From positions 1 through 64,000 of the forward strand of contig JAUXVI010000051.1 in the NCBI GenBank assembly GCA_030680575.1: a stretch of DNA of 64,000 nucleotides. The letters are read 5' to 3'. The position numbers and the translations under genes were made by a program. This document shows, one piece after another, positions 17,388 to 59,700 of this stretch. The notes under the pieces are model-generated. The model saw nothing but the letters and a program-made list of their open reading frames with translations, was not told the DNA's origin and searched no databases. Each line of letters opens with the position of its first letter. Position 1 is the first letter of the stretch. This stretch comes from Hylemonella sp. (GTDB lineage: Bacteria; Pseudomonadota; Gammaproteobacteria; Burkholderiales; Burkholderiaceae_C).

Positions 17388-18220
17388 TTCGAGGCATTCG
17401 GGAAAAAGAGCTGTTCGCCACCGATCTTGTAGCCGGCAATCGCGGCCTGGCCGGCTGGGCCGGTGACCCAGTCCACAAACTTCAGGCCGTCAGCGGTCTT
17501 CACCTGCGGGTGCTTGACCGCGCTCTCCAGCATCACGCCGTACTGGTTGAACAGACGCTTGTCACCTTCCACCAGCACCACCAGATCACCACGGTTCTTG
17601 AAGTTGAGCCAGGTGCCGCGGTCGGCCAGCACGTAGCCGCCGGCGCTGGAGCCGATGTTGAGCGCCGGGCCCATGCCGCAGCCGCATTCCTTGTAGCCGG
17701 TGCCCTTGTTGGCGTCGGTATCGGTCATCTTCCAGAAGCGCAGCTCGGCCGCGTGTGTGCCGCTCTTGTCACCGCGCGAGATGAAAGGCGCGTTGGCGGT
17801 GGCAACCTTTTTCATGGCGGCCACGATGTCGTTGCCTTTGGTGCCGGCCGGGTCGGCCTTGGGGCCGATCAGCACGAAGTCGTTGTACATGACGGGCAGG
17901 CGCTTGATGCCAAAACCCTCGGTCACGAACTTCTCTTCGGCCACTTGGTCGTGCACGAACACCACGTCGGCATCGCCGCGGCGCGCCATGTCCAGCGCCT
18001 GACCGGTACCCAGCGCCACCACCTTGATGTCGATGCCGCTGGCGGCCTTGAAAGCCGGCAGCAGGTGCGAGAACAGCCCCGACTGCTCGGTCGAAGTGGT
18101 GGACGACATGACGATGGTCTGCGCCGAAGCCGCCATGGATGCTATCGAAATCGTAGCTGCCAGCGCATATTTGACAAGCGCGGGAGCCCTAAAAGACCAT
18201 GAAGATTTGAAAGCGTTCAT
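17384..18220 (-). CDS. tupA: Tungstate ABC transporter binding protein
   Basis: A 278-residue TupA-type protein, which binds tungstate very tightly. After the signal peptide (cleavage near MAASAQ) it reads IVMSSTTSTEQSGLFSHLLPAF, the TTTS-like oxyanion motif of the family, then GTGQALDMARRGDADVVFVHD and FISRGDKSGTHAAELRFW. The signal-peptide coding sequence (residues about 9-27) coincides with a copy of the interspersed repeat at 18138-18196. The gene overlaps tupC upstream and the ModA-like gene downstream by 4 bp each. Confidence 0.92.
   Translation of the reverse strand: MNAFKSSWSFRAPALVKYALAATISIASMAASAQTIVMSSTTSTEQSGLFSHLLPAFKAASGIDIKVVALGTGQALDMARRGDADVVFVHDQVAEEKFVTEGFGIKRLPVMYNDFVLIGPKADPAGTKGNDIVAAMKKVATANAPFISRGDKSGTHAAELRFWKMTDTDANKGTGYKECGCGMGPALNIGSSAGGYVLADRGTWLNFKNRGDLVVLVEGDKRLFNQYGVMLESAVKHPQVKTADGLKFVDWVTGPAGQAAIAGYKIGGEQLFFPNASK
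18138..18196 (+). repeat. Interspersed Comamonadaceae repeat, copy A (tupA signal peptide)
   Basis: GCTATCGAAATCGTAGCTGC, then CAGCGCATATTTGACAAGCG and CGGGAGCCCTAAAAGACC. It runs antisense to tupA and encodes about residues 9-27 of the TupA precursor, most of the signal peptide's hydrophobic core. Confidence 0.75.
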
Positions 18221-18939
18221 ACCTGTTCTCCTTTGACGAATAAATGGGCGGTGGGCGAGACGGCACGCAGCCGCTCGATGTCGAAAAATTCCTGCACCGG
18301 CAGGTCGGCCTGCACCCGCCCCTGCTCCAGGTAGATGACCCGGGTTGCCAAGCGCTTGACTTGGCCCAGGTTGTGGCTGGCAAAGATCACCGTCACCGGG
18401 CGACCATCCTGGCGCTGGGCACCGCTGGCGAATTCGGCCATCAGCTGCTCCACCTCGCGCTTGGCATGCGGGTCGAGGCTGGCGGTGGGCTCGTCAAGCA
18501 TCAGCACGTCGGGCTGCAAGGCCCAGGCCCGTGCCATGGCCAGGCGCTGCTGCTGGCCGCCGGAGAGGGTGCGCGCCGGCCGGCCGGCCTTGTCGGCCAG
18601 TTCGACACGCTCCAGCGCCACCAGCGCCTGTTGCTTGGCCGCCTGCCAAGGCGTGCCGCGCAGCCACAGGGCCAGCGCCACGTTGTTGCGCGCCGAGGTG
18701 CGCAGCATGAAAGGGCGCTGGAACAGCATGGCCTGCCGCGCCGCGCCATTGCACGCGCACTGGCCGGCCGTGGGCCGCTGCAGGCCGTGCAGCAGGCGCA
18801 ACAGCGTGCTCTTGCCGCTGCCGTTGGCCCCCACCAGCGCCACCGACTCGCCGGCACCGATGCCCAGGTTCACGTCCGCCAGGGCATGCACCGGGCCGAA
18901 CGAGACACCGGCCGACTGCAGGTCAAAAATCAGGCTCAT
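18217..18939 (-). CDS. tupC: Tungstate ABC transporter ATP-binding protein
   Basis: A 240-residue ABC ATPase. Walker A GANGSGKS is at about 37-44, the signature LSGGQQQRLAMARA near 145, and Walker B VLMLDEPTASLD near 165. It lacks the C-terminal Mop domain seen in ModC. The 4-bp overlaps with tupB and tupA and the order permease-ATPase-binding protein identify it as the energy subunit of the Tup importer. Confidence 0.9.
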   Translation of the reverse strand: MSLIFDLQSAGVSFGPVHALADVNLGIGAGESVALVGANGSGKSTLLRLLHGLQRPTAGQCACNGAARQAMLFQRPFMLRTSARNNVALALWLRGTPWQAAKQQALVALERVELADKAGRPARTLSGGQQQRLAMARAWALQPDVLMLDEPTASLDPHAKREVEQLMAEFASGAQRQDGRPVTVIFASHNLGQVKRLATRVIYLEQGRVQADLPVQEFFDIERLRAVSPTAHLFVKGEQV

Positions 18940-19679
18940 GCCGCCGCCCCCACCCCGGTCGCGATGCCGTTGGCGTGCCCCTCAACATGCTCGCGCCAGC
19001 GCCGCACCAGGGCAATCAGGGCATTGAGCACCAGCACCACCCCCAACAGGATGAGGCCCAGCGCCAGCGCCAGCGGCAGGTCGCCCTTGCTGGTCTCCAG
19101 CGCGATGGCGGTGGTCATGACGCGGGTGAAGCCGTCGATGTTGCCGCCGACGATCATGACGGCACCGACCTCCGAGATGGCACGACCGAAGGAAGCCATC
19201 AACATGGTGAGCAAGGCGTAGCGCTCGTCCCAGGCCAGCAGCAGGCCGCGCAGGGCGGTGCCGGCGCCGAGCGAGCGCAACTGTTCACCATGCGTGTGCT
19301 CGGCATCCTCGATGACCTGGCGCGTCAAGGCCGTGGACACCGGCAGCACCAGCAGGGCCTGCGCCAGCACCATGGCCTGGAAATTGAACAGCCAGCCCAG
19401 GTGCCCCAGCGGGCCGGAGCGCGACAGCAGCAGGTAGACCACCAGACCGATGACCACCGAGGGAACAGCCAGCAGCGTATTGAGCAGGGTCAGCACCGCG
19501 TTGCGGCCGGCAAAACGGGCCACGCCAAGCCAGGCACCAAGCACCAAGCCCAGGCCACACGCCAGGGCACAGGCGGTGGCGCTGACGGCGAGCGAACGGC
19601 CGACGATGGCGAGCAGTCCGGGGTCGAAGGAGGTGATGAGTTGCAGCGCTGTAGCCGCGCTTTCGGTGAAGGTTGACAT
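18936..19679 (-). CDS. tupB: Tungstate ABC transporter permease
   Basis: A 247-residue inner-membrane permease, first gene of the seven-gene operon. Five to six hydrophobic stretches are visible; the coupling loop EQLRSLGAGTALRGLLLAWDERYALLTMLMASFGRAISEVGAVMIVGGN matches TupB/WtpB-type permeases. It is divergent from the ModE-PBP regulator with only 49 bp between the starts. Confidence 0.9.
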   Translation of the reverse strand: MSTFTESAATALQLITSFDPGLLAIVGRSLAVSATACALACGLGLVLGAWLGVARFAGRNAVLTLLNTLLAVPSVVIGLVVYLLLSRSGPLGHLGWLFNFQAMVLAQALLVLPVSTALTRQVIEDAEHTHGEQLRSLGAGTALRGLLLAWDERYALLTMLMASFGRAISEVGAVMIVGGNIDGFTRVMTTAIALETSKGDLPLALALGLILLGVVLVLNALIALVRRWREHVEGHANGIATGVGAAA

Positions 19680-19723
19680 GCTTGGGTTATCGTACGGACT
19701 CGATCAAAACCCCACCATATGAA

Positions 19724-19737
19724 CTATCGTGCATAGG
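19724..19737. promoter_or_regulatory. Inverted repeat at the tupB/regulator divergence (ModE-like site candidate)
   Basis: The dyad CTATCGTGCATAG (arms CTAT and ATAG) lies within AACTATCGTGCATAGGTT and covers the GTG start of the divergent regulator. It shares the CTAT/ATAG arms of the ModE box at 8833-8855, which suggests autoregulation of the regulator and control of tupB. The half-sites are short, so chance cannot be excluded. Confidence 0.35.
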
Positions 19738-20913
19738 TTGCAGTTTCACTACACATTCGGCTCACAGCCGCAAGACCAGGCCGGACTGATCCGCAACCCG
19801 CTGTTCGATCTGCTCCACGCGGTGCAGGAATCCGGTTCGATCTCGGGCGCGGCGCGTAGCCTGCAACTGTCTTACCGCCACGTCTGGGGCGAGCTCAAGC
19901 GCTGGGAAGGCGAACTGGGACATGAGCTCATCGTCTGGGAAAAAGGCCAGGCGGCACGCCTGACCGAGTTCGGCAACAAGCTGTTGTGGGCCGAGCGCCA
20001 AGCGCAAGCGCGGCTGTCGTCGCAGATCGAAGCCTTGCGCGCCGACCTGGAGCGCGCCTTTGCCGTCGCCTTCGACGACTCGGTGCACGTGGTGACGCTG
20101 TATGCCAGCCACGACGATGCCCTGAGCACCCTGCGCACGCACGCGGCCAGCCAGCACCAGTTGCACCTGGATGTGCGCTTCACCGGCAGCGTGGATGCGA
20201 TTCGTGCCCTGAACGAGGGGCGCTGCGTGATGGCCGGCTTTCACACGCTGCACCAGCCGGGCCAGGGTTCACTGGCCGAGAAGACCTACAAGCCACTGCT
20301 GAAACCCGGACTGCACAAGATCATTGCTTTCGCGCGGCGCAGTCAGGGCCTGATGGTGGCCAAAGGCAACCCGCTCGGCTTGCAGTCGCTGCACGATCTG
20401 CCACGCACCGGTGCGCGCTTCATCAACCGGGCCCTGGGCACCGGCACGCGTGTGCTGGTGGACGAGCTGCTGGCGCAGGCCGGCATCAGCGCCGGCAAAA
20501 TCAAGGGCTTCGAGCATACCGAGCCCTCGCACACCGCCGTGGCCCAGGCTGTGGCAGCCGGCCAGGCCGATGTCGGGCTCGGGATTGAAGCTGCCGCGCG
20601 TGCGCGCGGGCTGGACTTCGTGCCGCTGGTGGAGGAGGACTACCACCTGGTCTGCCTCAAGTCGGCGCTGGACGAACCGGCGGTGCAGGCCTTGTGCCGC
20701 GTGCTGCAAAGCGAAAACTGGCAAGAGGTGCTGCACCAGCTGCCGGGCTACCGGATGGCCGATGCCGCCGGCCAGGTGCTGTCGCTGCGGCGCACGCTGC
20801 CATGGTGGAACTACAGAACCGAGAAGACGCCGTCCGGCGCCAAGCCCGAGCCGGCCCCTCAGAGGGCGCAGGAGCGGAAGCCGCAGAAGATGTCGTCTCG
20901 CCCCGGCAAATAG
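19729..20913 (+). CDS. ModE-type HTH regulator fused to a periplasmic-binding-like sensor domain
   Basis: A 394-residue one-component regulator. Residues about 20-95 are a ModE/LysR-like winged helix (SGSISGAARSLQLSYRHVWGELKRWEGELG). Residues about 105-340 are a PBP-like domain (PF12727 type) with VRFTGSVDAIRALNEGRCVMAGFH and GQADVGLGIEAAARARGLDFVPL instead of the TOBE/Mop domains of ModE. It is divergent from tupB and so probably senses tungstate or molybdate and controls the tup-mol operon. The start is a GTG at 19729; no upstream ATG is in frame. The last ~18 codons overlap the 3' end of the convergent EgtB-like gene. Confidence 0.85.
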   Translation: MHRLQFHYTFGSQPQDQAGLIRNPLFDLLHAVQESGSISGAARSLQLSYRHVWGELKRWEGELGHELIVWEKGQAARLTEFGNKLLWAERQAQARLSSQIEALRADLERAFAVAFDDSVHVVTLYASHDDALSTLRTHAASQHQLHLDVRFTGSVDAIRALNEGRCVMAGFHTLHQPGQGSLAEKTYKPLLKPGLHKIIAFARRSQGLMVAKGNPLGLQSLHDLPRTGARFINRALGTGTRVLVDELLAQAGISAGKIKGFEHTEPSHTAVAQAVAAGQADVGLGIEAAARARGLDFVPLVEEDYHLVCLKSALDEPAVQALCRVLQSENWQEVLHQLPGYRMADAAGQVLSLRRTLPWWNYRTEKTPSGAKPEPAPQRAQERKPQKMSSRPGK

Positions 20914-26136: not shown

Positions 26137-28035
26137 CTAGGCCACGACCTTGAGCGCAGGCCGCGCCTGGGCCACCAACTCGGGGTAGCGCTTTTCGATG
26201 CTGGCCTGAATCCCGGCGGCATCCAACCCTTGCATGCTCAGCAGTTTGCCCGGGTCGCCATGCTCGATGAACACATCGGGCAATCCCAGTTGCAGCAGTG
26301 GCTTGAGTACCCCGGCCGCTTGCAGCGCCTCACTCACCGCACTGCCGGCACCGCCCATGACGGCGCCCTCTTCCACGGTGACCAGCGCCTCGTGCTCGGC
26401 CGCCACCTGAAGCAACAACTCGGTGTCGAGCGGTTTGACCCAGCGCATGTTGACCACGGTGGCGCCCAGTTTTTCTGCAGCGGCCAGCGCCGGGTAGAGC
26501 AAGGTACCAAAGGCCAGGATGGCAAGCCCCTTGCCCTGGCGACGCACCTCGCCTTTGCCGTAAGGCAGGCCTTGCAGCCCCGCTTCGGTAGCGACGCCAG
26601 CACCCGCACCGCGCGGGTAACGCACGGCCACCGGGTGGTTCTGTTCGAACGCGGTGGAGAGCAGCTGGCGGCACTCGCGCTCATCGGCCGGGCAGGCCAC
26701 GCTGACATTCGGAATGCAGCGCAGGTAGGCAATGTCGTAGGCGCCAGCGTGGGTGGCACCGTCGGCACCGACCAGGCCGGCACGGTCCAGGGCGAACACG
26801 ACCGGCAGGTTCTGCAGTGCCACGTCATGGATCAACTGGTCGTAGGCGCGCTGCAGGAAGGTGGAGTAGATCGCCACCACCGGCTTCAAGCCCTCGCAGG
26901 CCAGACCGGCAGCGAAGGTGACCGCATGCTGCTCGGCAATGCCGACGTCGTAGTAACGATCCGGGAAGCGCTGGTGGAACTCCACCATGCCCGAGCCTTC
27001 GCGCATCGCCGGCGTGATGCCGACCAGGCGCGGGTCCTTCTCGGCCATGTCGCACAGCCAGTGGCCGAACACCTGGGTGAAGGTCTGCTTTGGGGGCGTG
27101 GCGGGCTTCTGCAGGCCCACCGCCGGGTCGAACTTGCCGGGACCGTGGTAGGCCACCGGGTCGGCCTCGGCCAGCTTGTAGCCCTGGCCTTTCTTGGTGA
27201 CCACGTGCAGGAACTGCGGGCCCTTGAGGTGCTTGATGTTCTCCAGCGTCGGGATCAGCGATTCGAGGTCATGGCCGTCGATCGGGCCGATGTAGTTGAA
27301 GCCGAACTTCTCGAACAGCGTCGCCGGCACCACCATGCCCTTGGCATGTTCCTCGATGCGCTTGGCCAGCTCGAACAGCGGCGGCGCGCCCTTGAGCACC
27401 GTCTTGCCCACGTTCTTGGCCGCGGCGTAGAACTGGCCGCTCATGAGTTGCGCCAGATAGCGGTTGAGCGCCCCCACCGGCGGGCTGATGCTCATGTCGT
27501 TGTCGTTCAGGATGACCAGCAAGCGGCAGTCTTCCACGCCACCGTGGTTGAGCGCCTCGAAGGCCATGCCGGCCGTCATCGCACCGTCGCCGATGACGGC
27601 GATGGCATGGCGGTCCTCGCCCTTTTGCCGCGCCGCCAGCGCCATGCCCAGCGCAGCAGAGATCGAGGTGCTGGAGTGCGCGGTGCCGAAGGCATCAAAT
27701 TCGCTCTCGCTGCGCTGCGGGAAACCGGACAGGCCGCCAAGCTGGCGCAGCGTGCTCATACGCTCACGCCGGCCGGTCAGGATCTTGTGCGGGTAGGTCT
27801 GGTGGCCCACGTCCCACACCAGGCGGTCGTGCGGCGTGTTGAAGACGTAGTGCAGCGCCACGGTGAGTTCCACCGTGCCCAGGTTGGAGCTGAGGTGACC
27901 ACCGGTCTTGGCCACACTCTCCAGCAAATAGGCGCGCAGTTCATCGGCCAGCGTGCGCAACTCGTGGCGGGAGAGCTTGCGCAGATCCGCCGGATCGTTG
28001 ACGGTCTGCAGCAAGGGATAGGAGGTGTTCGACAT
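26137..28035 (-). CDS. dxs: 1-deoxy-D-xylulose-5-phosphate synthase
   Basis: A 632-residue thiamine-diphosphate enzyme that condenses pyruvate with glyceraldehyde 3-phosphate, the first step of the MEP isoprenoid pathway. The ThDP/Mg motif is [18 protein letters not shown] (about 153-170) and ends in [31 protein letters not shown] and the [15 protein letters not shown] stretch of the pyrimidine domain are intact. Length matches the family. It is the third gene of xseB-ispA-dxs, separated from ispA by 61 bp that consist almost entirely of one interspersed-repeat copy. Confidence 0.97.
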
Positions 28036-28094
28036 ACGCTATGTTTTTGATAGCTGGTTGCGCAATAATGACGGGGGCTTGATGCCGATTTGAC
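28036..28094 (+). repeat. Interspersed Comamonadaceae repeat, copy C (dxs-ispA spacer)
   Basis: GCTATG, TTTTTGATAGCTGGTTGCGC and a tail GGGGGCTTGATGCCGATTTGA match the family core described for the other copies at 18138, 36525, 45341 and 58535. It fills the space between ispA and dxs, so it is part of the operon mRNA. Confidence 0.75.
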
Positions 28095-28096
28095 TC

Positions 28097-29008
28097 TCAA
28101 TTCGCACGATTGACCACCATGTCGGCCAAGGAACGCAGAGCGCGCGTGTCGGCCAGGCCACTGGCATTGAGCGCCGCCAGCGCCTGCGCCAGCAGCTCCT
28201 GAGCGTAACCGTGCGAGCGCTCAAGCCCGAGGATGGAGACATAGGTCGGCTTGTCCTGCTCGGCATCCTTGCCGGCGGTCTTGCCCAGCGTGGCGGAGTC
28301 GGCCGTCACGTCCAGGATGTCGTCCACCACCTGGAAGGCCAGGCCGATGGCAGCGCCGTAGACCGACAAGGCTTCGCGCTCGGCGGCCGTCAGTTCGCCA
28401 CAGGCGGCGCCCATCAGCACACTGCCCTGCAGCAGCGCACCAGTTTTCAGCCGATGCATCTCACGCAGTTGTTCTTCGTTCAGTTTCACGCCAACGCTGG
28501 CCAGGTCAATGGCCTGGCCGCCGGCCATGCCGGCACTGCCGGCCGCGCGTGCCAGCAGCCGGCACAGCTGGGCCTGCATGGCCTCGGGCACGCTGCCGTC
28601 GTCAGGTGTCAGCAACTCGAACGCCAGCGCCTGCAGCGCGTCGCCGGCCAGCAAGGCACTGGCTTCACCATATTGCACATGCACGGTGGGCTTGCCACGG
28701 CGCAACACGTCGTTGTCCATGCAGGGCATGTCGTCGTGCACCAGCGAATAGGCATGAATCAGCTCCACCGCGCAGGCCGCACGCAGGGCGGCATCCATGT
28801 TGCCGCCCATCGCCTCGGCGGCGGCCAGCACCAGCAAGGGACGCAGGCGCTTGCCGCCATCGAGCACGGCGTAGCGCATCGCTTGCCCCAGGCCGGCCGG
28901 GGCATCAGGTGCGACCCAGGTCGAGAGCGCCTGTTCAACGCGGTCCAGCCGCTCGGCGCTCCAGGCGCGCAGATCCAATTCAGCCAGCTGAGTCACTCGG
29001 GTGTCCAT
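28097..29008 (-). CDS. ispA: Farnesyl diphosphate synthase (geranyltranstransferase)
   Basis: A 303-residue prenyltransferase. The first aspartate-rich motif is DDMPCMDND (about residues 93-101) and the second DDILD (about 233-237); [19 protein letters not shown] and GGQAIDLAS are typical of bacterial IspA. It elongates DMAPP/GPP to farnesyl diphosphate in the cytoplasm. Its start overlaps the end of xseB by 16 bp, and dxs follows. Confidence 0.96.
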
Positions 29009-31527: not shown

Positions 31528-31768
31528 AGAAGCACCCCCGACTCTCGCCCACTGCGTGTGGCTCGCACGGTGACTACGCCAGAGGCTCAGTCTCTTCGAC
31601 CTGTCCAAGCCTGCGCAGGCAGACTTGGAGCCGCAGGTCTCAGCCCCCTCAAGGGGGCGCACCCAGTGGCCCGGCGGAGCCGGTTCCACGGGTGCCCTGA
31701 AGTGGACCTTGGCATATCAACACCATTGGCGATGCGCAGTACCATTTCGTATTGAACAAGGACTCGTC
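31528..31768. repeat. Intergenic region with REP-like palindromes
   Basis: 241 bp without a gene. It contains the palindromes CCTGCGCAGG and GCCCCCTCAAGGGGGC followed by a GC-rich tail, an arrangement I associate with extragenic repeats of Comamonadaceae. No second copy is in the window. Confidence 0.4.
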
Positions 31769-35740: not shown

Positions 35741-36586
35741 TCAGTGCCCGTGCGTCACGGTGCTGACCAGCGTCACCAGCCCGATGCCCACCAGCAACCA
35801 GGCGATCTGGGCCAGCGTCTCGCGCAAACTCAGGCGCTTTTGCAGTTGCGGAATCAGGTCGGCCAGCGCCACGTAGATGAAGCTGCTGGAGGCCACCACC
35901 AGGAAGTAGGTCAGGTAGTCGTGCAGTTGGTCCACCAGCCAGTAGCCGATCAGCCCGCCCAGCGCCGTGATGGCGCCGGCCAGCGTGACCTTGAGCAGCG
36001 CGGCCTTGCGGTCGCCCGTGCTCTGCCGCAGCACCAGCAGGTCACCCATGTGGTGTGGCACCTCGTGCGCCAGCACGGCCAGTGCCGCAACGACACCCAG
36101 GCGCAGGTCGGCGATGAAGGCGGAGGCGATCAGGATGCCGTCGCCGAAGCAGTGCACGCTGTCGCCGGCCAGCACGGTCCAGCCACCCGATGTGTGCGCC
36201 TGACCGTGAGGGTGGTGATGCGCCTCGTGGTCATGGTCATCGTGCTCATGGGCAGCCGCGTGGTGGTGTTCATGGCCGTGGTGCCAGAGTTCGGCCTTGT
36301 CGAGCAGAAAGAAAAACACCAAGCCGATCAGCAGCGTCATGAACAGACGGTGCGGCTCGATCTCACTTTCGAAGGCTTCGGGCAGCAGGTGCAAAAAGGC
36401 CGTGCCCATCAATGCGCCCGCGGCCAGGCTCAGCATGTGCTGGGTGTAGCGTGACAGCACGCCGAAGCTCAGGGCGGCGGCCAGCCAGACGCTGCCAATG
36501 CCGGCGACCAGGGTGCCGGCCAGAATTGCTATCAAAATCATAGCTACTTGCGCTTTTTCATCAAGGGTAGGGGCCGATTTTCGCAT
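35741..36586 (-). CDS. ZIP-family metal transporter with His-rich loop
   Basis: About 281 residues with eight hydrophobic segments. The cytoplasmic loop between segments 3 and 4 is a dense His/Asp/Glu run (HGHEHHHAAAHEHDDHDHE), and the metal-path motifs HCFGDGILIASAF and HEVPHHMGDLLVL are intact. ZIP proteins move zinc, iron or manganese into the cytosol. The start is uncertain: ATG at 36586 or at 36541 (MILIAILAG). Both lie in or next to an interspersed-repeat copy, so the repeat supplies the N-terminus. Confidence 0.88.
   Translation of the reverse strand: MRKSAPTLDEKAQVAMILIAILAGTLVAGIGSVWLAAALSFGVLSRYTQHMLSLAAGALMGTAFLHLLPEAFESEIEPHRLFMTLLIGLVFFFLLDKAELWHHGHEHHHAAAHEHDDHDHEAHHHPHGQAHTSGGWTVLAGDSVHCFGDGILIASAFIADLRLGVVAALAVLAHEVPHHMGDLLVLRQSTGDRKAALLKVTLAGAITALGGLIGYWLVDQLHDYLTYFLVVASSSFIYVALADLIPQLQKRLSLRETLAQIAWLLVGIGLVTLVSTVTHGH
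36525..36581 (+). repeat. Interspersed Comamonadaceae repeat, copy B (ZIP gene 5' end)
   Basis: GCTATCAAAATCATAGCTAC, then TTGCGC and the tail CATCAAGGGTAGGGGCCGAT. It shares the TAGCTNNTTGCGC core and the G-rich tail with the other four copies. It contains one of the two possible ZIP start codons. Confidence 0.75.
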
Positions 36587-36614
36587 CCAATTCACGCCAA
36601 GGCCCGAACGCGAA

Positions 36615-36640
36615 CAAAAAAGCCGCCCGCAGGCGGCTTT
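36615..36640 (-). terminator. Rho-independent terminator after the dienelactone-hydrolase-like gene
   Basis: Stem AAAGCCGCC / GGCGGCTTT with loop CGCA; on the minus strand the stem is followed by a T-run. It ends the transcript of the gene at 36673-37572 before the ZIP gene. Confidence 0.88.
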
Positions 36641-36672
36641 CTGCCGGTGCATGGTCTGAGACCATGCAAGAC

Positions 36673-37572
36673 TCAGGCCACGCCGTGCTGCTTGAACCAA
36701 GCCAGGCAACGCCGCCATCCATCTTCGGCTGCCTCCTTGCGGTAGCTGGGCCGGTAGTCGGCATGGAAAGCATGCGGCGCATCCGGGTAGACCACGAACT
36801 GCGAGGCCCGGGCGGCGGTATTGCCCGCGGCCAGTGCCACCTTCATCTTCTCCACGCCGTCGAGCGGGATGCCGGTGTCGGCGCCGCCGTACAGACCCAG
36901 CACCGGGCCATGGAGCTGGCCGGCGATGTCGATCGGGTTCTTGGGTGTCAGCTCCGTGCGGTCGCCAACGATGCGGCCATACCAGGCCACACCGGCCTTG
37001 ATGTGTTTGCTGTGTGCGGCATAAAGCCAGGTCTGGCGGCCGCCCCAGCAGAAACCGGTGATACCCACGCGCGCCAGGTCGCCACCGTTGGCGCCAGCCC
37101 AGGCTACGGCGGCATCGAGGTCGCCCGCCACCTGGGCGTCCGGCACCTTGGAGATGACTTCGGCAATCAGCTTGGCCATCTCGCCATAGCTTTGCGCATC
37201 ACCCTGGCGCACGAACAGCTCGGGGGCGATGGCCAGGTAGCCGGCGCGGGCAAAACGGTTGGCCACGTCGGCAATGTGCTCATGCACGCCGAAGATTTCC
37301 GACAGCACCAGCACCACCGGCAGGTTTTTCTTGCCCGCCGGCATGGCGCGGTAGGCCGGCATCTTGAAACCCTTGACGTCAATGCTCACCTCACCCGCGG
37401 TCAGGCCGTCGGTCGGTGTCTTGATCGCCGTCTGCGCCATGATCGGCATGACGGACGCGGCATAACCCACGCCCAGTGCTGTCTTGAGCGCGGTACGGCG
37501 CGTGGCGCCCGCTTCGGTGCTCTGGCCGGGCAGCAGGGCCTTGAATTCGGTCTCGAGATCGCGGTTCATCAT
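36673..37572 (-). CDS. Dienelactone hydrolase-family protein, exported
   Basis: A 299-residue alpha/beta hydrolase with a twin-arginine-like N-terminus (TRRTALKTALGVGYAASVMPIMAQ, about residues 24-47). The catalytic triad is visible: Cys in GFCWGGRQTW (about 172), Asp in GGADTGIPLDG, His in PDAPHAFHADY. Cysteine as nucleophile is characteristic of dienelactone hydrolases. The export signal suggests a periplasmic site, unlike the classical cytoplasmic enzyme of chlorocatechol breakdown; the substrate is unknown. Confidence 0.9.
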   Translation of the reverse strand: MMNRDLETEFKALLPGQSTEAGATRRTALKTALGVGYAASVMPIMAQTAIKTPTDGLTAGEVSIDVKGFKMPAYRAMPAGKKNLPVVLVLSEIFGVHEHIADVANRFARAGYLAIAPELFVRQGDAQSYGEMAKLIAEVISKVPDAQVAGDLDAAVAWAGANGGDLARVGITGFCWGGRQTWLYAAHSKHIKAGVAWYGRIVGDRTELTPKNPIDIAGQLHGPVLGLYGGADTGIPLDGVEKMKVALAAGNTAARASQFVVYPDAPHAFHADYRPSYRKEAAEDGWRRCLAWFKQHGVA

Positions 37573-45124: not shown

Positions 45125-47503
45125 TCAGGGCACCGGCGTCAGCTTGGCCACCGACAGCGCCAGCCACTTGACGCCGTGGCGCGGGAAGTTGACCTGCGCC
45201 CGCGCATCGTCACCCGCCCCTTCGAGCGTGAGCACCGTGCCTTCGCCGAACTTGGTGTGGAACACCTTCATGCCGACCTTCAGGCCGGTGCTCTCGCTGG
45301 CTTTTGACACCGGCTCGGGCGCATGTCGGCTGCTCGAAAAATCAGAGCCAAATTGGCCCTTGGACCCCGACCAACCTGCGCGTCCAGCTCCTGAATTGAT
45401 AGCAACTTCAAAGCCGGAGCCAAAGCCCTGGTGCTTCGGCGTGATCCACTTGAGCGTTTCCTCCGGCAACTCATCGAAGAAGCGGCTGCGGATGTTGTAA
45501 CGCGTCTGGCCGTGCAGCATGCGTGTCTGCGAGTGGCTGAGGTACAGGCGCTGGCGTGCGCGTGTGATGGCCACATACATCAGGCGCCGCTCCTCCTCCA
45601 ACCCGTCGAAGTCACTCATCGAGTTCTCGTGCGGGAACAGGCCTTCTTCCAGCCCGGTGATGAAAACGCAGTTGAACTCCAGCCCCTTGCTGGCATGCAC
45701 CGTCATCAGCTGCACTGCGTCCTGCCCGTCCTGCGCCTGGTTGTCGCCGGCCTCCAGCGCGGCGTGGGTGAGGAAGGCAGCCAGCGGTGACATCACTTCG
45801 CCAGTGTCGTCGGGCGCCCCGGGCTCGGCGGCCGCTGGTACGCTCGTTTCCTGCGGCAGCGCCTCGGCATCACGGCCGAAGCCTTCCAGCGAAACAAAGC
45901 TCTCGGCCGCGTTCACCAGTTCTTCCAAGTTCTCGATGCGGTCGGCGCCTTCGCGCTCGGTCTGGTAGTGCTCGATCAGGCCGCTGTGTGCCAGCACCAG
46001 TTCGATGATCTCGCGCAGCGTCAGACCTTGCGTCTGCTCGCGCAGCACGTCGATCTTGGCAACGAAAGCACCGAGGTTGGCACCGGCCTTGCCGCTGACC
46101 GTGCTCACCGCGTCATGCAGCGAGCAGCCGGCCGCGCGCGCCGCGTCCTGCAGCTGCTCCAGGCTGCGCGCCCCGATGCCGCGCGGCGGGAAATTGACCA
46201 CGCGCAGGAAACTGGTGTCGTCCAGCGGATTCTCCAGCAGACGCAAGTAGGCCAGCGCGTGCTTGATCTCGGCGCGCTCGAAGAAGCGCAGGCCGCCATA
46301 CACCTTGTAGGGGATGGCGGCATTGAACAAGGCGGTCTCGATCACCCGGCTCTGCGCGTTGGAGCGGTACAGCACGGCAATCTCTTTTCTCTCCATGCCT
46401 TCGCGCACCAGCTGTTTCATCTCGTCCACCATCCACTGCGCCTCGGCAAAGTCGCTGGTGGACTCGTACACCCGCACCGGCTCGCCCGGTCCCTGATCGG
46501 TGCGCAGGTTCTTGCCCAGGCGGTGCTTGTTGTGGCTGATCAGCTCGTTGGCGGCGTCCAGGATGTTGCTGTAGCTGCGGTAGTTCTGCTCCAGCTTGAT
46601 CTGGTGCTGCACCTTGAATTCGCGCACGAAGTCGGCCATGTTGCCCACGCGCGCACCGCGGAAGGCGTAGATGCTCTGGTCGTCGTCGCCTACGGCCAGC
46701 ACCGCGCCGCCGTCCGGGCGCAGCGTGCCGCTGTCATCCTGCCCCGCCAATTGCTTAATCCAGGCGTACTGCAGCTTGTTGGTGTCCTGGAACTCGTCGA
46801 TCAGGATGTGGCGGAAGCGCCGCTGGTAGTGCTCGCGCACCGGATCGTTATCGCGCAGCAGCTCGTAGGAACGCAGCAGCAGCTCGCCGAAATCGACCAC
46901 GCCCTCGCGCTGGCACTGCTCTTCGTACAGCTGGTACAACTCCACCTTCTTGCGCGTGTCCTCGTCGCGCGCCTCCACCATGTGGGGGCGCAGCCCCTCT
47001 TCCTTGCAGCCGGCAATGAACCACTGCAACTGCTTGGGCGGAAAACGTTCGTCGTCCACATTGAACTGCTTGCACAGACGCTTGACGGCGCTGAGCTGGT
47101 CCTGCGTGTCCAGGATCTGGAAGGTCTGCGGCAGGTTGGCTGCCTTGTAGTGGGCACGCAGCAGCCGGTTGCACAGGCCATGGAAGGTGCCGATCCACAT
47201 GCCGCGCACATTGACCGGCAGCATGCTGGAGAGGCGCGTCATCATCTCGCGCGCCGCCTTGTTGGTGAAGGTCACCGCCAGCACACCGCCGGGCGACACC
47301 TGCCCCGTCTGCAGCAGCCAGGCGATGCGCGTGGTCAGCACCCGCGTCTTGCCCGAACCGGCGCCGGCCAGGATCAGCGCATGCTCGGGCGGCAGCGTGA
47401 CGGCGGCACGCTGCTCCTCATTCAGACTCGCAATCAAGGGGGAGTCGGTGGCGGTGGAAAACAGGGAGGGGGAGAAACCGGACGGCGGCAGAACAGAGGA
47501 CAT
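45125..47503 (-). CDS. uvrD: DNA helicase II (UvrD/PcrA)
   Basis: A 792-residue superfamily 1A helicase that unwinds DNA in excision and mismatch repair. Motifs: Q-type LNEEQRAAVT, Walker A LAGAGSGKTRVL (about 45-56), TFTNKAAREM, DEFQDTN, GDDDQSIYAFRGA, YRSNAQSRVIE, VQLMTVHASKGLEF and YVAITRARQRL. The linker between the helicase core and the C-terminal Tudor-like segment (VGMKVFHTKFGEGTVL) is encoded by a copy of the interspersed repeat (45341-45405), which gives a Gly/Ser-rich stretch. Confidence 0.96.
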   Translation of the reverse strand: MSSVLPPSGFSPSLFSTATDSPLIASLNEEQRAAVTLPPEHALILAGAGSGKTRVLTTRIAWLLQTGQVSPGGVLAVTFTNKAAREMMTRLSSMLPVNVRGMWIGTFHGLCNRLLRAHYKAANLPQTFQILDTQDQLSAVKRLCKQFNVDDERFPPKQLQWFIAGCKEEGLRPHMVEARDEDTRKKVELYQLYEEQCQREGVVDFGELLLRSYELLRDNDPVREHYQRRFRHILIDEFQDTNKLQYAWIKQLAGQDDSGTLRPDGGAVLAVGDDDQSIYAFRGARVGNMADFVREFKVQHQIKLEQNYRSYSNILDAANELISHNKHRLGKNLRTDQGPGEPVRVYESTSDFAEAQWMVDEMKQLVREGMERKEIAVLYRSNAQSRVIETALFNAAIPYKVYGGLRFFERAEIKHALAYLRLLENPLDDTSFLRVVNFPPRGIGARSLEQLQDAARAAGCSLHDAVSTVSGKAGANLGAFVAKIDVLREQTQGLTLREIIELVLAHSGLIEHYQTEREGADRIENLEELVNAAESFVSLEGFGRDAEALPQETSVPAAAEPGAPDDTGEVMSPLAAFLTHAALEAGDNQAQDGQDAVQLMTVHASKGLEFNCVFITGLEEGLFPHENSMSDFDGLEEERRLMYVAITRARQRLYLSHSQTRMLHGQTRYNIRSRFFDELPEETLKWITPKHQGFGSGFEVAINSGAGRAGWSGSKGQFGSDFSSSRHAPEPVSKASESTGLKVGMKVFHTKFGEGTVLTLEGAGDDARAQVNFPRHGVKWLALSVAKLTPVP
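45341..45405 (-). repeat. Interspersed Comamonadaceae repeat, copy E (inside uvrD)
   Basis: On the minus strand: GTTGCTATCAATTCAGGAGC, then TGGACGCGCAGG, then a tail with GGGGTCCAAGGGCCAATTTG. It is in the same orientation as uvrD and translated in frame as part of the C-terminal linker. Confidence 0.7.
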
Positions 47504-49484: not shown

Positions 49485-50171
49485 TCAGTCGCTGGCGAGC
49501 CGGTAACCGACGCCGGTCTCGGTCAGCAGATGGCGCGGCTCGGCCGGGTCGCGCTCGATCTTGGCGCGCAGCTGACCCATGTACAGCCGCAGGTAGTGCG
49601 TGTGCTCGGTGAACTCGGGGCCCCACACATCCGTCAGCAGCTGCCGGTGCGTCACCACCTTGCCGGCGCTGCGCACCAGGCGCGCCAGCAGCTTGAACTC
49701 GGTGGGTGTGAGATGCACCGGCGCCCCGGCGCGCTGCACTGTGTGCGCGGCGAGATCGATGCGCAGATCGTCCAGTTCATGCACCGTCACGGCGGCGGCC
49801 AGGGCCGTGCCACGGTGGCGTAGTGCCACGCGGATGCGTGCCAGCAGCTCGCCCACGTTGAAGGGTTTGGTCAGGTAGTCGTCGGCGCCGGCATCGAGCA
49901 GCTCGATCTTCTGCACTTCCTGATGGCGTGCCGACACCACGATGATGGGCACGCTCTGCTGCCGGCGCACCTCGTGCACCAGTTGCAGGCCGTCGCCGTC
50001 GGGCAACCCCAGATCGAGCACGATGACGTCGGGCGGGCTGTGGCGCAGCAGCGCCATGGCCTCGCTCAACGTCACCGCGGTCTGCACCTCGAAGCCTTCG
50101 ACCGAAAGCGAAGACTGCATCAGCGAGCGGATCTCGCGGTCATCCTCCACCACCAGCACGCGCAAGGTCAT
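49485..50171 (-). CDS. kdpE: KdpE-type OmpR-family response regulator
   Basis: A 228-residue two-domain regulator. The receiver ([12 protein letters not shown], phospho-acceptor Asp53 in [12 protein letters not shown], Lys in LTKPF) is followed by a winged helix (about 130-228, [54 protein letters not shown]). Sequence is closest to KdpE. CGGAGG lies seven bases before the ATG at 50171, in the proximal copy of a 62-bp tandem duplication that separates it from the kinase gene. An upstream TTG (50189) is less likely. Confidence 0.92.
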
Positions 50172-50178
50172 GGCAACA

Positions 50179-50294
50179 CCTCCGTGCAACGCACTGCGGT
50201 ACGAGCCCCTTCGGGCGGCCGGGCGGGGTTCACGAAAAAACCTCCGTGCAGCGCACTGCGGTGCGAGCCCCTTCGGGCGGCCGGGCGGGGCTCA
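50179..50294. repeat. Tandem duplication between the kinase and regulator genes
   Basis: Two 54-bp copies (50179-50232 and 50241-50294) differ at three positions and repeat with a period of 62 bp. Each copy, read on the minus strand, carries a GC hairpin (GAGCCCC/GGGGCTC in the kinase-proximal copy, GAACCCC in the other) and a CGGAGG Shine-Dalgarno sequence. Only the copy next to kdpE is followed by its ATG. Confidence 0.9.
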
Positions 50295-51785
50295 TGGCAA
50301 CTCCGGCGCCGGTGGCGGCAGATCCAGCGGCAACACCAGGCAGAAGACGCTGCCTTCGCCAACGCGGGACTGCAGCGTCAGCCGGCCGCCATGCGCCTGC
50401 GCAATGGCGCGGCAGACCGCCAGCCCCAGACCGGCACCGCGCCGGCCCGAGCGGTCGCCACGCGCATAAGGTTTGAAGATGTCTTCCTGTTCGGCCAGCG
50501 CAATGCCGGGCCCGTGGTCCGCGACGCAGAGCTGGATCTCCTGCGGCTGTGCGCTGACCGTCAGCTCAATCGTTCCCTCGCCATACTTGAGCGCGTTGTC
50601 CAGCAGATTGCCGACCAGTTGCGCCAGCAGCACCGGATCAACCTTCACCAGCGGCAAGCCATCCGGCACGCTGGCGCGGATGCGATGGTCCGGGTCATGC
50701 GGACGCATGCGCGCCAGCACCGCGCCGACGATCTCCTCCATCGACTCCCAGTCGCGCCGCAGCACCAGCCCGGGGCTGGCCAGCCGCACCAGTTGCAAGG
50801 TGTTCTCGGTGATGGCGCTGAGGTAGGACGCTTCACTCGCAATGCTGTCCAGCAGGCGCGCCTGTTCCGTCGGGGCCAGCTTGTCGTGCTGGGTCTGCAG
50901 GGCGGATGCCGCGCCCACGATGGCGGCCAGCGGCGTGCGCAGATCGTGCGAGATCGCCGCCAGAAAGGTGCTTTGCAACTGCTGGCGCTCGGCCTCGCCC
51001 TGCGCCGCCAGCATGGAGGTGGTGAGCTTCAGACGCCACAGCGCCTGCGCCAGCAGGGCACACAGCGCCTGCGCATGTTCCCGTCCTTCCTCGTCGGCGG
51101 CCACGGCCGGGCGGACACAGGCGGCCCCCGAGACCTTTGCCCGTTCACCCAAGGGCAGGTACCAGGCGTCCAGACCGGGCCAGCGCCCCGTGCCTGGTCC
51201 CAGCACGGCGCCTTCGTTCATGCAACAGTGCATGCCGTCAAGTACGGCGGGCGTCAGCTCCTCGACCTGCGCCAAGGCCGCGACGCCTTCCGCCAGCACC
51301 AGCGTGTTAGGCCCCGCAAAAGCGGCATCCAGCGCGCTACGGCCCAAGGTCTGCACCTGTTGCGGCGTGGTGACGCCGGACAGCTCGGTCGCCAGCGCCT
51401 GCAACTGCCGCGCACGCTGCTCATTCAGCCGGGCGATCTCGGTCTCGCGCCGCAGCCCGCTGGCCAACCTGCTGATCACCAGGGCGACCACCAGCATGGT
51501 GGTGAGCGCAATGAAGTGCTCCTGGCTCTCGACCTCGAAGGTCCAGCGCGGTGGCACGAAAAAGAAGTTCAGGGCGGTGACGGCACCGACGGCGCAGACG
51601 GCCGATTTCACCCAGTCCAGCCGGTAGGCGGCGATCACGACCGTCAGCACGTAGATCATGGCCTGGCTGGTCAGCGATACATGCGGCTCCAGCAACAAGC
51701 CCGCGACGGTGGCCAGCGCCAGCAACCCGATGACGATGCCCCAAGGTCTGCTGGAGGAGATGGCCGGAGTCTTGGATCGATCCAT
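50292..51785 (-). CDS. Short KdpD-like sensor histidine kinase
   Basis: A 497-residue kinase equivalent to the C-terminal half of KdpD. Four hydrophobic segments (about 17-110) form the DUF4118 domain typical of KdpD; then a GAF-like linker, the H-box FLAAISHDLRTPLAAIVGAAS (phospho-His about 288) and the ATPase boxes NLLDNALKYG, DHGPGI and GAGLGLAVC. The N-terminal KdpD/USP cytoplasmic domains of full KdpD (~900 residues) are absent. It lies beside kup rather than a kdpFABC pump. Confidence 0.9.
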   Translation of the reverse strand: MDRSKTPAISSSRPWGIVIGLLALATVAGLLLEPHVSLTSQAMIYVLTVVIAAYRLDWVKSAVCAVGAVTALNFFFVPPRWTFEVESQEHFIALTTMLVVALVISRLASGLRRETEIARLNEQRARQLQALATELSGVTTPQQVQTLGRSALDAAFAGPNTLVLAEGVAALAQVEELTPAVLDGMHCCMNEGAVLGPGTGRWPGLDAWYLPLGERAKVSGAACVRPAVAADEEGREHAQALCALLAQALWRLKLTTSMLAAQGEAERQQLQSTFLAAISHDLRTPLAAIVGAASALQTQHDKLAPTEQARLLDSIASEASYLSAITENTLQLVRLASPGLVLRRDWESMEEIVGAVLARMRPHDPDHRIRASVPDGLPLVKVDPVLLAQLVGNLLDNALKYGEGTIELTVSAQPQEIQLCVADHGPGIALAEQEDIFKPYARGDRSGRRGAGLGLAVCRAIAQAHGGRLTLQSRVGEGSVFCLVLPLDLPPPAPELP

Positions 51786-57219: not shown

Positions 57220-57337
57220 GGACGATCAGCGCCCTGAAATGAATGACACGTCATCATGGTCATGCAGCGTCCGCAGCACATGGGCTCAGCGGCAGCCTCC
57301 CGTTGCGAGAACAAGCGAGGCAGCCAGACGGCTCACG

Positions 57338-58219
57338 TCAACCCCGCCCCAACACCAGCCGGCTCGCCAGCTGATGCAGGTGCGTCCACGGTGCCGTCAG
57401 GTCCTCGAGCACACTGAAGTGGTTCTTGCCGGGAATGGTTTCGCACACCGGCACGACCTTTTTGCCCCAGGCCTGCTGGATCAGCTGGTTATGGCGAATG
57501 AACTCGGCACTTTCGTCACCACCGGCCACCGCGTAGAGCACTCCCCGCCTGGGTGCGGGCAGCAGCGCCGGGCTGGCCAGGCGCACCTGTTCAGGCGTGA
57601 GCTTGAGCGAGTCCTTGAGAAAAGGGGTGTGCATGATCGGCTCCAGGTCGTACAGGCCTGAGATGGACATGGCGCCCTTCACCAGATCAGCCGGCAAGTC
57701 CTTGGCATAGGCCGGCCAGAGGCAGTCCAGCAGCATGGCCGCCAAGTGGCCGCCCGCTGAGTGGCCCACCACATGGATGCGATTCGGGTCCCCGCCGTAC
57801 TTGCGGGCATTACGGTAGACCCAGGCCAGTGCCTTGACCATCTGCAGTGTGATCTGCGGAATGGTCACCGCCGGGCACAGCGCGTAGTTGGGGATCATGA
57901 CGCAAGCGCCCTGGTTGGTGAAAGCCGGCGCGATGAAGGAATGATCCGCCTTGTCAAGCGAGCGCCACCAGCCGCCATGAATGAACACCACCACCGGCGC
58001 GCCGGCGGCGGGGGCCGGCTGCGGCGCCAAGTGCGAGCGAGGGAAGACGTCGAGCGTTTCCATCGGTTCATCACCATAGGCCACATCGAGCTTGTGCACA
58101 TGGACTTCACGCGCATCATCCGAGGCATCCGCCCACTGGGCGAAGTGGGCCGCATGTTCAGGCACCAACGCCCGGTTGTTGTACATGCGGTCCAGCCATT
58201 GCTTATCCCAAGAAGCCAT
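57338..58219 (-). CDS. Alpha/beta hydrolase (esterase/kynurenine-formamidase-like)
   Basis: A 293-residue serine hydrolase of the HSL/kynurenine-formamidase type. The oxyanion motif HGGWWRSLDK (about 86-95), nucleophile elbow VGHSAGGHLAAM (Ser about 164), an acid candidate Asp in AGGDESAEF and His in PGKNHFSVLEDL make a complete triad. The gene is divergent from the SAF-domain oxidoreductase with 128 bp between them, which holds an 8-bp inverted repeat. Confidence 0.88.
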   Translation of the reverse strand: MASWDKQWLDRMYNNRALVPEHAAHFAQWADASDDAREVHVHKLDVAYGDEPMETLDVFPRSHLAPQPAPAAGAPVVVFIHGGWWRSLDKADHSFIAPAFTNQGACVMIPNYALCPAVTIPQITLQMVKALAWVYRNARKYGGDPNRIHVVGHSAGGHLAAMLLDCLWPAYAKDLPADLVKGAMSISGLYDLEPIMHTPFLKDSLKLTPEQVRLASPALLPAPRRGVLYAVAGGDESAEFIRHNQLIQQAWGKKVVPVCETIPGKNHFSVLEDLTAPWTHLHQLASRLVLGRG

Positions 58220-58263
58220 TCACGATCTCCAATTTTTGTTCTGTCATTTTCGCAGGGCTTGAT

Positions 58264-58307
58264 CTTGTCACACTCCTGCCGCCAGACGGCCGCCGACCCG
58301 TGACAAG
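58264..58307. promoter_or_regulatory. Inverted repeat in the hydrolase/oxidoreductase divergent promoter region
   Basis: CTTGTCAC (58264-58271) and GTGACAAG (58300-58307) are perfect 8-bp arms, centre to centre 36 bp, in a divergent intergenic region. This could be a pair of operator half-sites for an unlinked regulator; it is too widely spaced for a terminator. Confidence 0.35.
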
Positions 58308-58347
58308 GGGAAACCCTGAGAAAGACAAGTCGCGGTATTCTTGTTTC

Positions 58348-59700
58348 ATGAACCTCCATGCCAAACTCCAGCAACGCGCCGCCGAGCAGCGGCCGGTCCG
58401 TGTCGGCCTGATCGGGGCCGGCAAATTCGGCTCCATGTACCTGGCCCAGATTCCGCGCACGCCCGGCGTGCAACTGGTCGCCATTGCCGACCTGTCACCC
58501 GACGCGGCCCGCGCCAACCTCGCACGTGTGGGATGGAATTCGGCCTCTAGCGCCGCCACATCTGCGCAAGACGCTATCAAAACAGGAGCAACCTGGATCA
58601 CCGACGACTGGCGCGCCGTGGTCACCCACCCGCAGATCGACATCATCGTCGAGTGCACCGGCAACCCCATCGCCGCGGTGGACCACATCCTGGAGGCCTT
58701 CGCCCACGGTAAGCACGTGGTCAACGTCACGGTGGAGGCCGATGCCTTCTGTGGCCCGCTGCTGGCGCGCCGCGCGGCGCAGGCCGGCGTGGTCTATTCG
58801 CTGGCCTTCGGTGACCAGCCGGCGCTGATCTGCGACTTGGTGGACTGGGCCCGCACCTGCGGCTTCCCGGTGGTGGCGGCAGGGCGCGGCCACAAGTGGC
58901 TGCCGCACTTCAGCGAATCGACGCCGGAGACGGTGTGGGGCAACTACGGCCTGACGCCCGAGCAGGCCGCACGCGGCGGCCTCAACCCCAAGATGTTCAA
59001 CAGCTTTCTCGATGGCTCCAAGCCCTCCATTGAAAGCACGGCGGTGGCCAACGCCACCGGCCTCACGGTACCGAGCAACGGCCTGCTCTACCCACCGGCC
59101 AGCGTGGAAGACATTCCCTTCGTCACGCGGCCCAAAAGCGAAGGCGGCGTGCTGGAGCGCAAGGGCATGGTGGAGGTGATCTCCTCGCTGGAGGCCGATG
59201 GCCGCAAGATTCCGTATGACATCCGCATGGGGGTCTGGGTCACGGTGGAGGCCGAAACCGAGTACATCAAGAACTGCTTCGAGGAGTACAACGCCCACAC
59301 CGACCCCAGCGGACGCTACTTCACGCTCTACAAGCGCTGGCACCTGATCGGGCTGGAAGTCGGCGTCTCGGTGGCCAGTGTGGCCGTGCGCGGCGAGCCC
59401 ACCGGCGTGGCCACCTGCTGGAATGCCGACGTGGTGGCGACTGCCAAGCGCGACCTGCAACCCGGCGAGATGCTCGACGGCGAAGGCGGTTACACCGTCT
59501 GGGGCAAGCTGCTGCCGGCCAGCACCTCGCTGCAGCTGGGCGGCTTGCCGCTGGGCTTGGCGCACAATGTCAAACTGGTACGCCCGGTGAAAAAAGGCCA
59601 AAGCCTGCGCTGGGACGATGTCGCCATGGATACCAGCACCCATGCCTACCAGGTTCGACGCGAGATGGAACAGATGTTTGAGGGAGTGAAGAAACCATGA
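58348..59700 (+). CDS. NAD(P)-dependent oxidoreductase with homoserine-dehydrogenase-like and SAF domains
   Basis: A 450-residue protein. The Rossmann N-terminus is clear (RVGLIGAGKFGSMYLAQIPR, about 19-38), with VECTGNPIAAVDHILEAFAHGKHVVNVTVEADAF; the C-terminal SAF-type domain covers about 370-445 (AKRDLQPGEMLDGEGGYTVWGKLLP). Related genes sit in catabolic operons for sugar acids, but the reaction is not established. A copy of the interspersed repeat (58535-58591) is translated within residues about 64-82. The ATG at 58348 gives a normal N-terminus. It overlaps the next gene by 4 bp. Confidence 0.88.
   Translation: MNLHAKLQQRAAEQRPVRVGLIGAGKFGSMYLAQIPRTPGVQLVAIADLSPDAARANLARVGWNSASSAATSAQDAIKTGATWITDDWRAVVTHPQIDIIVECTGNPIAAVDHILEAFAHGKHVVNVTVEADAFCGPLLARRAAQAGVVYSLAFGDQPALICDLVDWARTCGFPVVAAGRGHKWLPHFSESTPETVWGNYGLTPEQAARGGLNPKMFNSFLDGSKPSIESTAVANATGLTVPSNGLLYPPASVEDIPFVTRPKSEGGVLERKGMVEVISSLEADGRKIPYDIRMGVWVTVEAETEYIKNCFEEYNAHTDPSGRYFTLYKRWHLIGLEVGVSVASVAVRGEPTGVATCWNADVVATAKRDLQPGEMLDGEGGYTVWGKLLPASTSLQLGGLPLGLAHNVKLVRPVKKGQSLRWDDVAMDTSTHAYQVRREMEQMFEGVKKP
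58535..58591 (-). repeat. Interspersed Comamonadaceae repeat, copy D (inside the SAF oxidoreductase gene)
   Basis: Minus strand: TTGCTCCTGTTTTGATAGCG, then TCTTGCGCAGATG, then GGCGCTAGAGGCCGAATTCC. Its orientation is opposite to the gene, and it is translated in frame as an Ala/Ser-rich segment. Confidence 0.7.

Follow-up and report, generated by a model that had tools for sequence, protein, structure and literature searches.

A 62-bp interspersed motif in Hylemonella and its relatives probably marks DNA recognition sites that arose in place

Background

How does a short repeat come to lie inside bacterial genes, where it is translated into protein, as well as in the spacers between them? The question is raised by a stretch of 64,000 nucleotides from Hylemonella sp. 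(NCBI GenBank assembly GCA_030680575.1, contig JAUXVI010000051.1, positions 1 to 64,000 of the forward strand; this whole stretch is called the window below), in which a first-pass annotation, made by a model from the letters, described five copies of an interspersed repeat of about 57 bp, most of them in coding sequence, and supposed that they had spread by insertion, perhaps with a transposase acting in trans or through some other mechanism. The analysis presented here points to another answer, namely that the copies are probably sites for DNA recognition, formed where they now lie and maintained by selection. On balance, and with some reserve, we favor an undescribed genome-wide recognition system in the Comamonadaceae, in which a 62-bp site found about every 10 kb would be served by a putative reader protein.

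A discrete family of repeats

The genome was sampled on five contigs (C15, C19, C38, C41, and C53), which total 796,910 bases or 23% of the genome. A profile seeded with copies found by pattern and iterated with nhmmer, with acceptance at E<=0.01, identified 79 copies. In the control, a search of the reversed sequence, the lowest E was 0.9 in the last round, after 0.47 and 0.55 in the two rounds before it. Extrapolated from this density of ~1 per 10,000 bases, the whole genome would hold roughly 340 copies. Over all 3.42 Mb of the genome, a core pattern allowing up to 2 mismatches has 117 matches and its backward control has none. The unit is ~62 bp long and gapless, with a single 1-base gap among 57 aligned copies; its consensus is about TGCTATnAATTTnATAGCTnCTnGCGCAnnnTnGACAAGGGCTnnnGnCCnATTTGnC, with AATTT tracts near motif positions 9-13 and 53-56, and the information content relative to base composition is 48.7 bits (69 copies at E<=1e-5). 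Mean GC content of the copies is 48.6%, in a genome of 63.5% GC. Cross-validated scores are bimodal: the number of sites per Mb goes from 101.7 at a threshold of >=10 bits to 92.9 at one of >=30, and the repeat-free members of the genus have 0 sites at >=8 bits and 1.5/Mb at >=6 bits, compared with 109.2/Mb at >=6 bits in the Hylemonella genome. The copies are thus a discrete sequence class. No match to Rfam was found in the window at gathering scores.

Within the window, the profile matches are exactly the five of the first-pass annotation, so that its claim of a single family present in both orientations is borne out; its coordinates were right to within four bases, although the unit is ~62-65 bp rather than 57. 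Across the 26 species of the genus, core matches with up to 2 mismatches are concentrated in four: the present genome (117), G410 (131), G593 (122), and G596 (110), with 0-8 matches in the other 22. The profile likewise found 33 matches in 269,803 bases of G596, and none in 254,905 bases of G592, 247,505 bases of G598, or 185,404 bases of G519, all three repeat-free congeners.

Placement in genes and translation

Genes were called with a simple codon-model caller of our own. By this measure, 33 of the 79 copies are within a coding sequence and flanked by coding signal on either side, 5 are within one but at its edge, 21 straddle the end of a gene, and 20 fall between genes. Random placements of 64 bp would put 71, 13, 9, and 7 percent in these four classes, which means that the copies favor spacers and yet are common in genes. 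Of the coding copies at E<=1e-4 (n=34), 15 run in the sense direction of their gene and 19 in the antisense direction, and 17 of the latter share one reading frame. The motif carries TAG at positions 16-18, and this triplet, which would be a stop codon in sense frame 0, is found in none of the five copies read in that frame, but of the 40 copies (E<=1e-4) that lie between genes or at a gene end, 39 have it (Fisher p 5e-6), the coding copies replacing this stem half by variants such as AGAGC or GGAGC. Avoidance of an in-frame TAG indicates that the copies are translated, as the annotation had proposed.

Origin in place or by insertion

Copies on C15 and C53 were aligned to the orthologous stretches of congeners, which gave one or more repeat-free orthologues for 16 coding copies. 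Thirteen of these 16 have a repeat-free congener in which no more than 3 copy bases are unmatched, and the same holds for 52 of the 74 coding comparisons taken together. None of these comparisons lacks the copy entirely, the largest loss being 38 of 64 bases. The addition of a full element length that marks insertions of Rickettsia palindromic elements (RPE) or miniature inverted-repeat transposable elements (MITE) was not found, the differences amounting to 5-38 nt at 3 of the 16 coding copies. Spread by insertion, whether by transposase or otherwise, is therefore not borne out for most gene copies. Amino acid identity to G592 is 0.46 inside the copies (227 codons) and 0.76 in the flanks, and identity to G598 is 0.43 (244 codons) and 0.72, showing that the copy-encoded segments are homologous but changed relative to repeat-free congeners.

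Deeper comparison was made for five genes with solved orthologues. The copy-encoded residues of PurK, LpxB, and FolP align gap-free to them, and those of MutS and NIF3 align with one single-residue gap, which argues against an insertion at any depth in these five genes. The annotation had itself named orthologues with the same protein segments, in unrelated taxa, as evidence that would speak against its view; an equal-length homologous segment is present in repeat-free congeners at the 13 copies, and in distant taxa in the solved orthologues of the five genes, although at two window copies (copies 1 and 2 of Table 1) the lengths differ. At orthologous places in the repeat-free congeners the residual motif score exceeds that at shifted places in 46 of 47 coding comparisons, but this is not used as evidence, because common descent with the present sequence yields the same effect.

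Selection on the DNA

Base identities between the present genome and its repeat-carrying congeners G596, G593, and G410 were compared by class of motif position, in bits per position. Positions of >=1 bit are 94.4% identical in coding copies and 95.1% in the others, above flanks of 89.9% and 89.1%, and positions of <0.5 bit are 81.0% and 82.1% identical. When only third codon positions are counted, over 13 coding sites, identity is 90.3% for strong positions (n=196), 79.2% for flanks (2418; p 8e-5 against the strong positions), and 76.2% for weak positions (189); the cells of this Fisher test pool all 13 sites with as many as 3 species and are only partly independent. Only the strongest motif positions are held, in coding and non-coding copies alike, and the middle class is not. 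At weak positions of coding copies, first and second codon positions are 0.83 identical, as compared with 0.95 in the flanks, and this faster change fits siting in permissive segments.

Relations among copies and their age

In a set of 69 copies, pairs are on average 0.520 identical, where independent draws would give 0.512, and the closest pair (0.742) is matched by the maximum in 31 of 200 column shuffles; no close pairs or recent duplicates were found in this set. Furthermore, of 31 copies on the present contigs, 27 could be aligned with a G596 orthologue, and all 27 have a copy there. An age test was extended to 91 copies in 61 loci, 31 of them named stretches and 30 from G585, a complete genome of another genus; 8 of these copies could be placed on the present contigs. 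Four of the 8 coincide with a copy here in both place and orientation; these four come from named loci whose flanks are 76-79% identical, and the shared sites are three: window copy 1, C41:28912, and C41:99658.

Two of the named loci, L072 and L077, carry copy 1 in this manner. Their identity to congeners, whether these carry the repeat or not, is 72-80%, lower than the identities within the congener pairs listed for the same region. Because the branching of unrooted trees that include these loci is weakly supported and inconsistent (beside the present genome at 0.62 in one region; beside G519, G602, and G603 at 0.65 in the other), only the identities were used. Copy 1 would most simply be ancestral and lost in the repeat-free clade.

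Taxonomic distribution and dialects

Copies are patchy, and dense only in the bacterial family of the host within the sampled order, in agreement with the earlier remark that similar sequences occur in Comamonadaceae. In 399 genomes of the order searched for the core with <=1 mismatch, more than one match was found only in this family, where 7 of 12 members have matches; 5 of the 387 others have one each, as in the backward control. Of 200 genomes surveyed in the family, 58 contain between 1 and 188 matches. A stricter pattern gave the 31 named stretches, which come from Rhodoferax (16), Polaromonas (6), Curvibacter (1), Giesbergeria (1), Burkholderiales metagenome-assembled genomes (3), and beta-proteobacteria (4). 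As a separate observation, 12 of 15 IMG/VR viral stretches with a core match (L228-L242) are also profile-positive at E<=0.01, and the motif thus occurs in some phage or prophage contigs.

The consensus is not identical across carriers. The 35 copies of G585, picked by the first motif half only, depart from the present profile (p<0.001) at 9 of the 62 positions, most strongly with G to C at position 40 (p 8e-16), and also with A to G at positions 37-38; these dialect numbers run one lower than those of the information profile, and dialect position 23 lies inside the pattern that selected the G585 copies and does not count. In the named loci 11 positions differ, but these loci were selected by a pattern covering both halves; G596 differs at no position. 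An exact-word search for another dialect in the repeat-free congeners gave an output dominated by codon-usage words.

A recognition site and its possible use

The motif is discrete and asymmetric, shows no dependence on strand or on the direction of genes, and seems to be selected on the DNA, and these properties imply a sequence-specific DNA reader. As we envisage it, a ~62-bp site would form within sequence that was already there, inside genes mostly through nucleotide substitution and in spacers with changes of length; selection on the DNA would then hold each site, and the reader would be a sequence-specific DNA-binding protein. By analogy, the site might act like an uptake or self-recognition signal of natural transformation, with copies made and mended by mutation plus recombination bias. 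Such a use is our best guess, though a tentative one that falls short of an even chance; a chromosome-organising role is the main alternative, and whatever probability remains goes to another reader or to the rival explanations discussed below.

The uptake signal sequences (USS) of Pasteurellaceae and the DNA uptake sequences (DUS) of Neisseriaceae, the two families to which uptake sequences belong in the surveyed literature, offer the comparison. Redfield 2006 (PMC1626085) describes a gap test in gene alignments showing that USS are not insertions, and a helical-turn spacing of the USS AT segments; Treangen 2008 (PMC2397512) describes DUS as more conserved than their surroundings and sited in permissive core regions. 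The present motif is similar in its origin in place, without an alignment gap at most of the gene copies tested, its conservation above the flanks (here for positions of >=1 bit), its siting in permissive segments, its two orientations, its clade-specific consensus, and its patchy absence. It differs in length, the known sequences having a 9-10-bp core (with two AT segments in USS) compared to 62 bp and 48.7 bits here, and in density, ~1 per kb compared to ~0.1 per kb (~100 sites per Mb). Because both core length and density fall outside the 9-12 bp at about one per kb of uptake sequences, the motif is not filed as one.

USS and DUS are also enriched in genome-maintenance genes, an enrichment that is unproven here. 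Maintenance genes make up 4 of the 29 copy-bearing genes scanned (UvrD, AddA-like, DnaX, MutS) and 3 of 53 scanned length-weighted random genes out of 60 drawn (TopA, MutS, AddA-like), with E cut-offs that differed between the sets. One UvrD-like helicase gene with a PD-(D/E)XK domain (C15:83529-86783, equal to L067:3529-6783) carries three motif copies, in both orientations.

If the proposal holds, a pressure at the DNA level would be strong enough to alter codons and amino acids of folP, lpxB, purK, mutS, and uvrD, in effect a DNA signal able to rewrite conserved protein segments. The sites would then be either a third, long-motif class of uptake or self-recognition sequence or a new kind of chromosome mark, and the presence of repeat-rich and repeat-free species in one genus would make origin and loss of the signal testable. 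In the searched literature on Comamonadaceae repeats and uptake sequences the motif was not recognised, only the beta-proteobacterial repeat element (BRE), a different element, surfaced, and none of three sequence words of the motif occurred; the Polaromonas JS666 genome paper may mention it.

A number of results weigh against recognition sites of in-place origin. In 22 of the 74 coding comparisons more than 3 bases are unmatched, as they are for 3 of the 16 coding copies (4 of 17 if window copy 1 is counted as coding), with 18-22 unmatched bases at C15:53325, 5-24 at C15:96738, and 38 at C53:131827. At copy C38:88773 the surrounding DUF3418 stretch exceeds its Pfam model by 41 residues, so that an insertion there is possible. 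Identity between the repeat-free G592 and G598 is itself lower in the copy segments than in the flanks (0.69 compared to 0.82). Positions of 0.5-1 bit are 77.7% identical in coding and 78.6% in other copies, below the flanks, and at third codon positions this middle class stands at 68.4% (136); the sites were moreover ascertained in the present genome, and the genes came from our simple caller. The spread of pair identities slightly exceeds that of all 200 shuffles, indicating weak sub-structure among the copies. A search for the reader protein found none, and ComEC is encoded in 195 of 200 family genomes with or without copies; the five without ComEC have no copies, too few to mean anything. 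The 62-bp length and the density of ~0.1/kb are unlike known uptake sequences, and Treangen 2008 (PMC2397512) argues for recombination, rather than point mutation, as the origin of new DUS.

Alternative explanations

SlmA, Noc, and gyrase-type sites are examples of chromosome-organising sites. A binding site of this kind, or of a nucleoid protein, spaced at ~10 kb would likewise occur in both orientations and be selected on the DNA, and if the reader were such a protein the motif would be an overlooked new kind of chromosome mark. Core matches are spread throughout the complete G585 genome, at 7-21 per 500-kb bin with the last bin incomplete, and the spacing is slightly more regular than random, with a coefficient of variation of 0.78 on the present contigs (74 intervals) and 0.93 in G585 (100 sites); the AATTT tracts also fit. 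We nevertheless consider a chromosome-organising use unlikely, if well worth keeping in mind, since near-absence from 22 of 26 genus members (0-8 core matches) is odd for a function in chromosome maintenance, and since the copies are not biased toward either replication strand as judged by GC skew, with 35 on the leading and 44 on the lagging strand. A replication-strand polarity was rejected on this unbiased count and on the mixed orientations in G585.

Far less probable is the first-pass explanation, a mobile element of RPE or MITE type that inserts in frame with its transposase in trans. High copy number, a discrete family, and both orientations in genes and spacers would be expected of it, and copy 2 in a spacer and the shorter orthologues of copy 1 (see below) speak in its favor; most gene copies have no insertion footprint, however, no coding comparison lacks a whole copy, close pairs are absent, and all 27 copies aligned to G596 are shared. 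The sole transposase gene of the Y1 type, the only type searched, lies ~4.6 kb from the nearest copy, and its relatives occur in 195 of 200 family genomes, repeat-free ones included. With one gene in the genome, no copy adjacent, and no co-occurrence with copies, a RAYT/Y1 transposase was rejected as the spreader; Y1 transposase and ComEC genes are both near-universal, so neither discriminates. The Y1 transposase-like gene itself (L070 1462-2160, or C41:33547-34245) appears to have been kept vertically.

Known mobile repeats differ in kind. RPE are ~150 bp long and insert in frame, as stated in a review (PMC10969869), and they resemble the present motif as short repeats translated inside proteins, but most gene copies tested here add no length. 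REP/REPIN sequences, which are associated with RAYT, share the many short interspersed copies and a palindromic half; the present copies are common inside genes, and neither a RAYT association nor recent copies were found. BRE, as described in PMC3110155, are found in Rhodoferax, Polaromonas, Acidovorax, and Bordetella, with some copies inside genes, and are 75-91 bp long, 69% GC in Bordetella, and often tandem; the present family, at ~62 bp and 48.6% GC, is set apart from them by description, not by alignment.

Insertions that predate the genus and have decayed in the repeat-free congeners are equally improbable. A loss probably did occur at copy 1, which the more distant loci L072 and L077 share and which repeat-free congeners lack, but the solved orthologues of PurK, LpxB, and FolP are gap-free, those of MutS and NIF3 show a single-residue gap, and the Pfam models LpxB, ATP-grasp, and HerA_C span copies at near-equal length, although DUF3418 does not. 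Least probable of all is an RNA element, such as a structured leader, terminator, or small RNA: an inverted-repeat half GCTAY...RTAGC is paired in 77% of cells, but RNAalifold on 57 copies predicts no pairs, covariation does not exceed that of shuffles (408 of 500 reach the score), coding copies lie on both strands, and Rfam gave no window match.

The five window copies and their surroundings

The gene contexts described by the first-pass annotation are as it claimed for all five copies (Table 1).

Table 1. The window copies of the motif, with host and neighboring genes.
Feature	Position	Strand	E	Description
Copy 1	18140..18202	+	7.8e-11	antisense within signal-peptide codons of a substrate-binding protein gene
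Host of copy 1	17384..18220	-		PBP_like_2 substrate-binding protein; start codon at 18220; N-terminus MNAFKSSWSFRAPALVKYALAATISIAS
Copy 2	28037..28100	+	6.8e-12	spacer between dxs and polyprenyl synthetase gene
Neighbor of copy 2	26137-28035	-		dxs
Neighbor of copy 2	28097-29008	-		polyprenyl synthetase gene
Copy 3	36527..36590	+	1.8e-11	spans start codon (36541) of ZIP transporter gene
Host of copy 3	35741..36541	-		ZIP transporter (domain scan on 35741-36718); N-terminus MILIAILAG
Copy 4	45342..45405	-	2.2e-10	inside uvrD, aa ~700-721
Host of copy 4	45125..47503	-		UvrD helicase (Pfam UvrD)
Copy 5	58531..58590	-	9.3e-8	antisense inside DRL/SAF oxidoreductase gene
Host of copy 5	58300..59700	+		oxidoreductase with DRL catalytic and SAF domains

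Copy 1, which was tallied as intergenic in the gene-caller counts because the caller trimmed the start of its host gene, is present in G593, G596, and G410 and absent in 8 aligned repeat-free congeners, in all 8 of which the segment is 16-21 nt shorter (of 63). Copy 2 is held by 3 of 3 repeat-clade species, and 40-53 of its 64 bases have no counterpart in 9 of 9 aligned repeat-free congeners. At copy 3, 7-28 of 64 bases are unmatched in 8 of 8 congeners, whose DNA is gap-free through the start codons with the gap lying upstream of the start; the N-terminus reads MILIAIL here and MTLIAIL from the G592 codons. Since lengths differ at these three, copies outside conserved protein may have involved length changes. 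Copy 4 has 0-4 bases unmatched and 0-4 extra in 8 repeat-free congeners, with the exception of G519 (38 extra), and copy 5 is of equal length in G606, the sole repeat-free congener aligned, with AIKTGATW here and ALKTGATW in G606. The observations thus leave room for a length change at copies 1 and 2, and copies 4 and 5 fit a homologous segment with no insertion.

Other repeated sequences occur beside the motif. Two 12-mers, GTGGAACCGGCT and CCGGTTCCACGG, occur 15-16 times in the five sampled contigs compared with 0.3 expected, and perhaps represent a further repeat family. At window positions 50168-50291 are two tandem GC-rich copies of 62 nt, 89% alike, with a related partial copy at 14488-14526; positions 50239-50296 match many dispersed sites in congeners, and the GC-rich, tandem character is like that of BRE, a likeness by description only. 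A ~150-bp stretch at ~31530-31690 also matches many dispersed congener sites and belongs to another interspersed repeat family.

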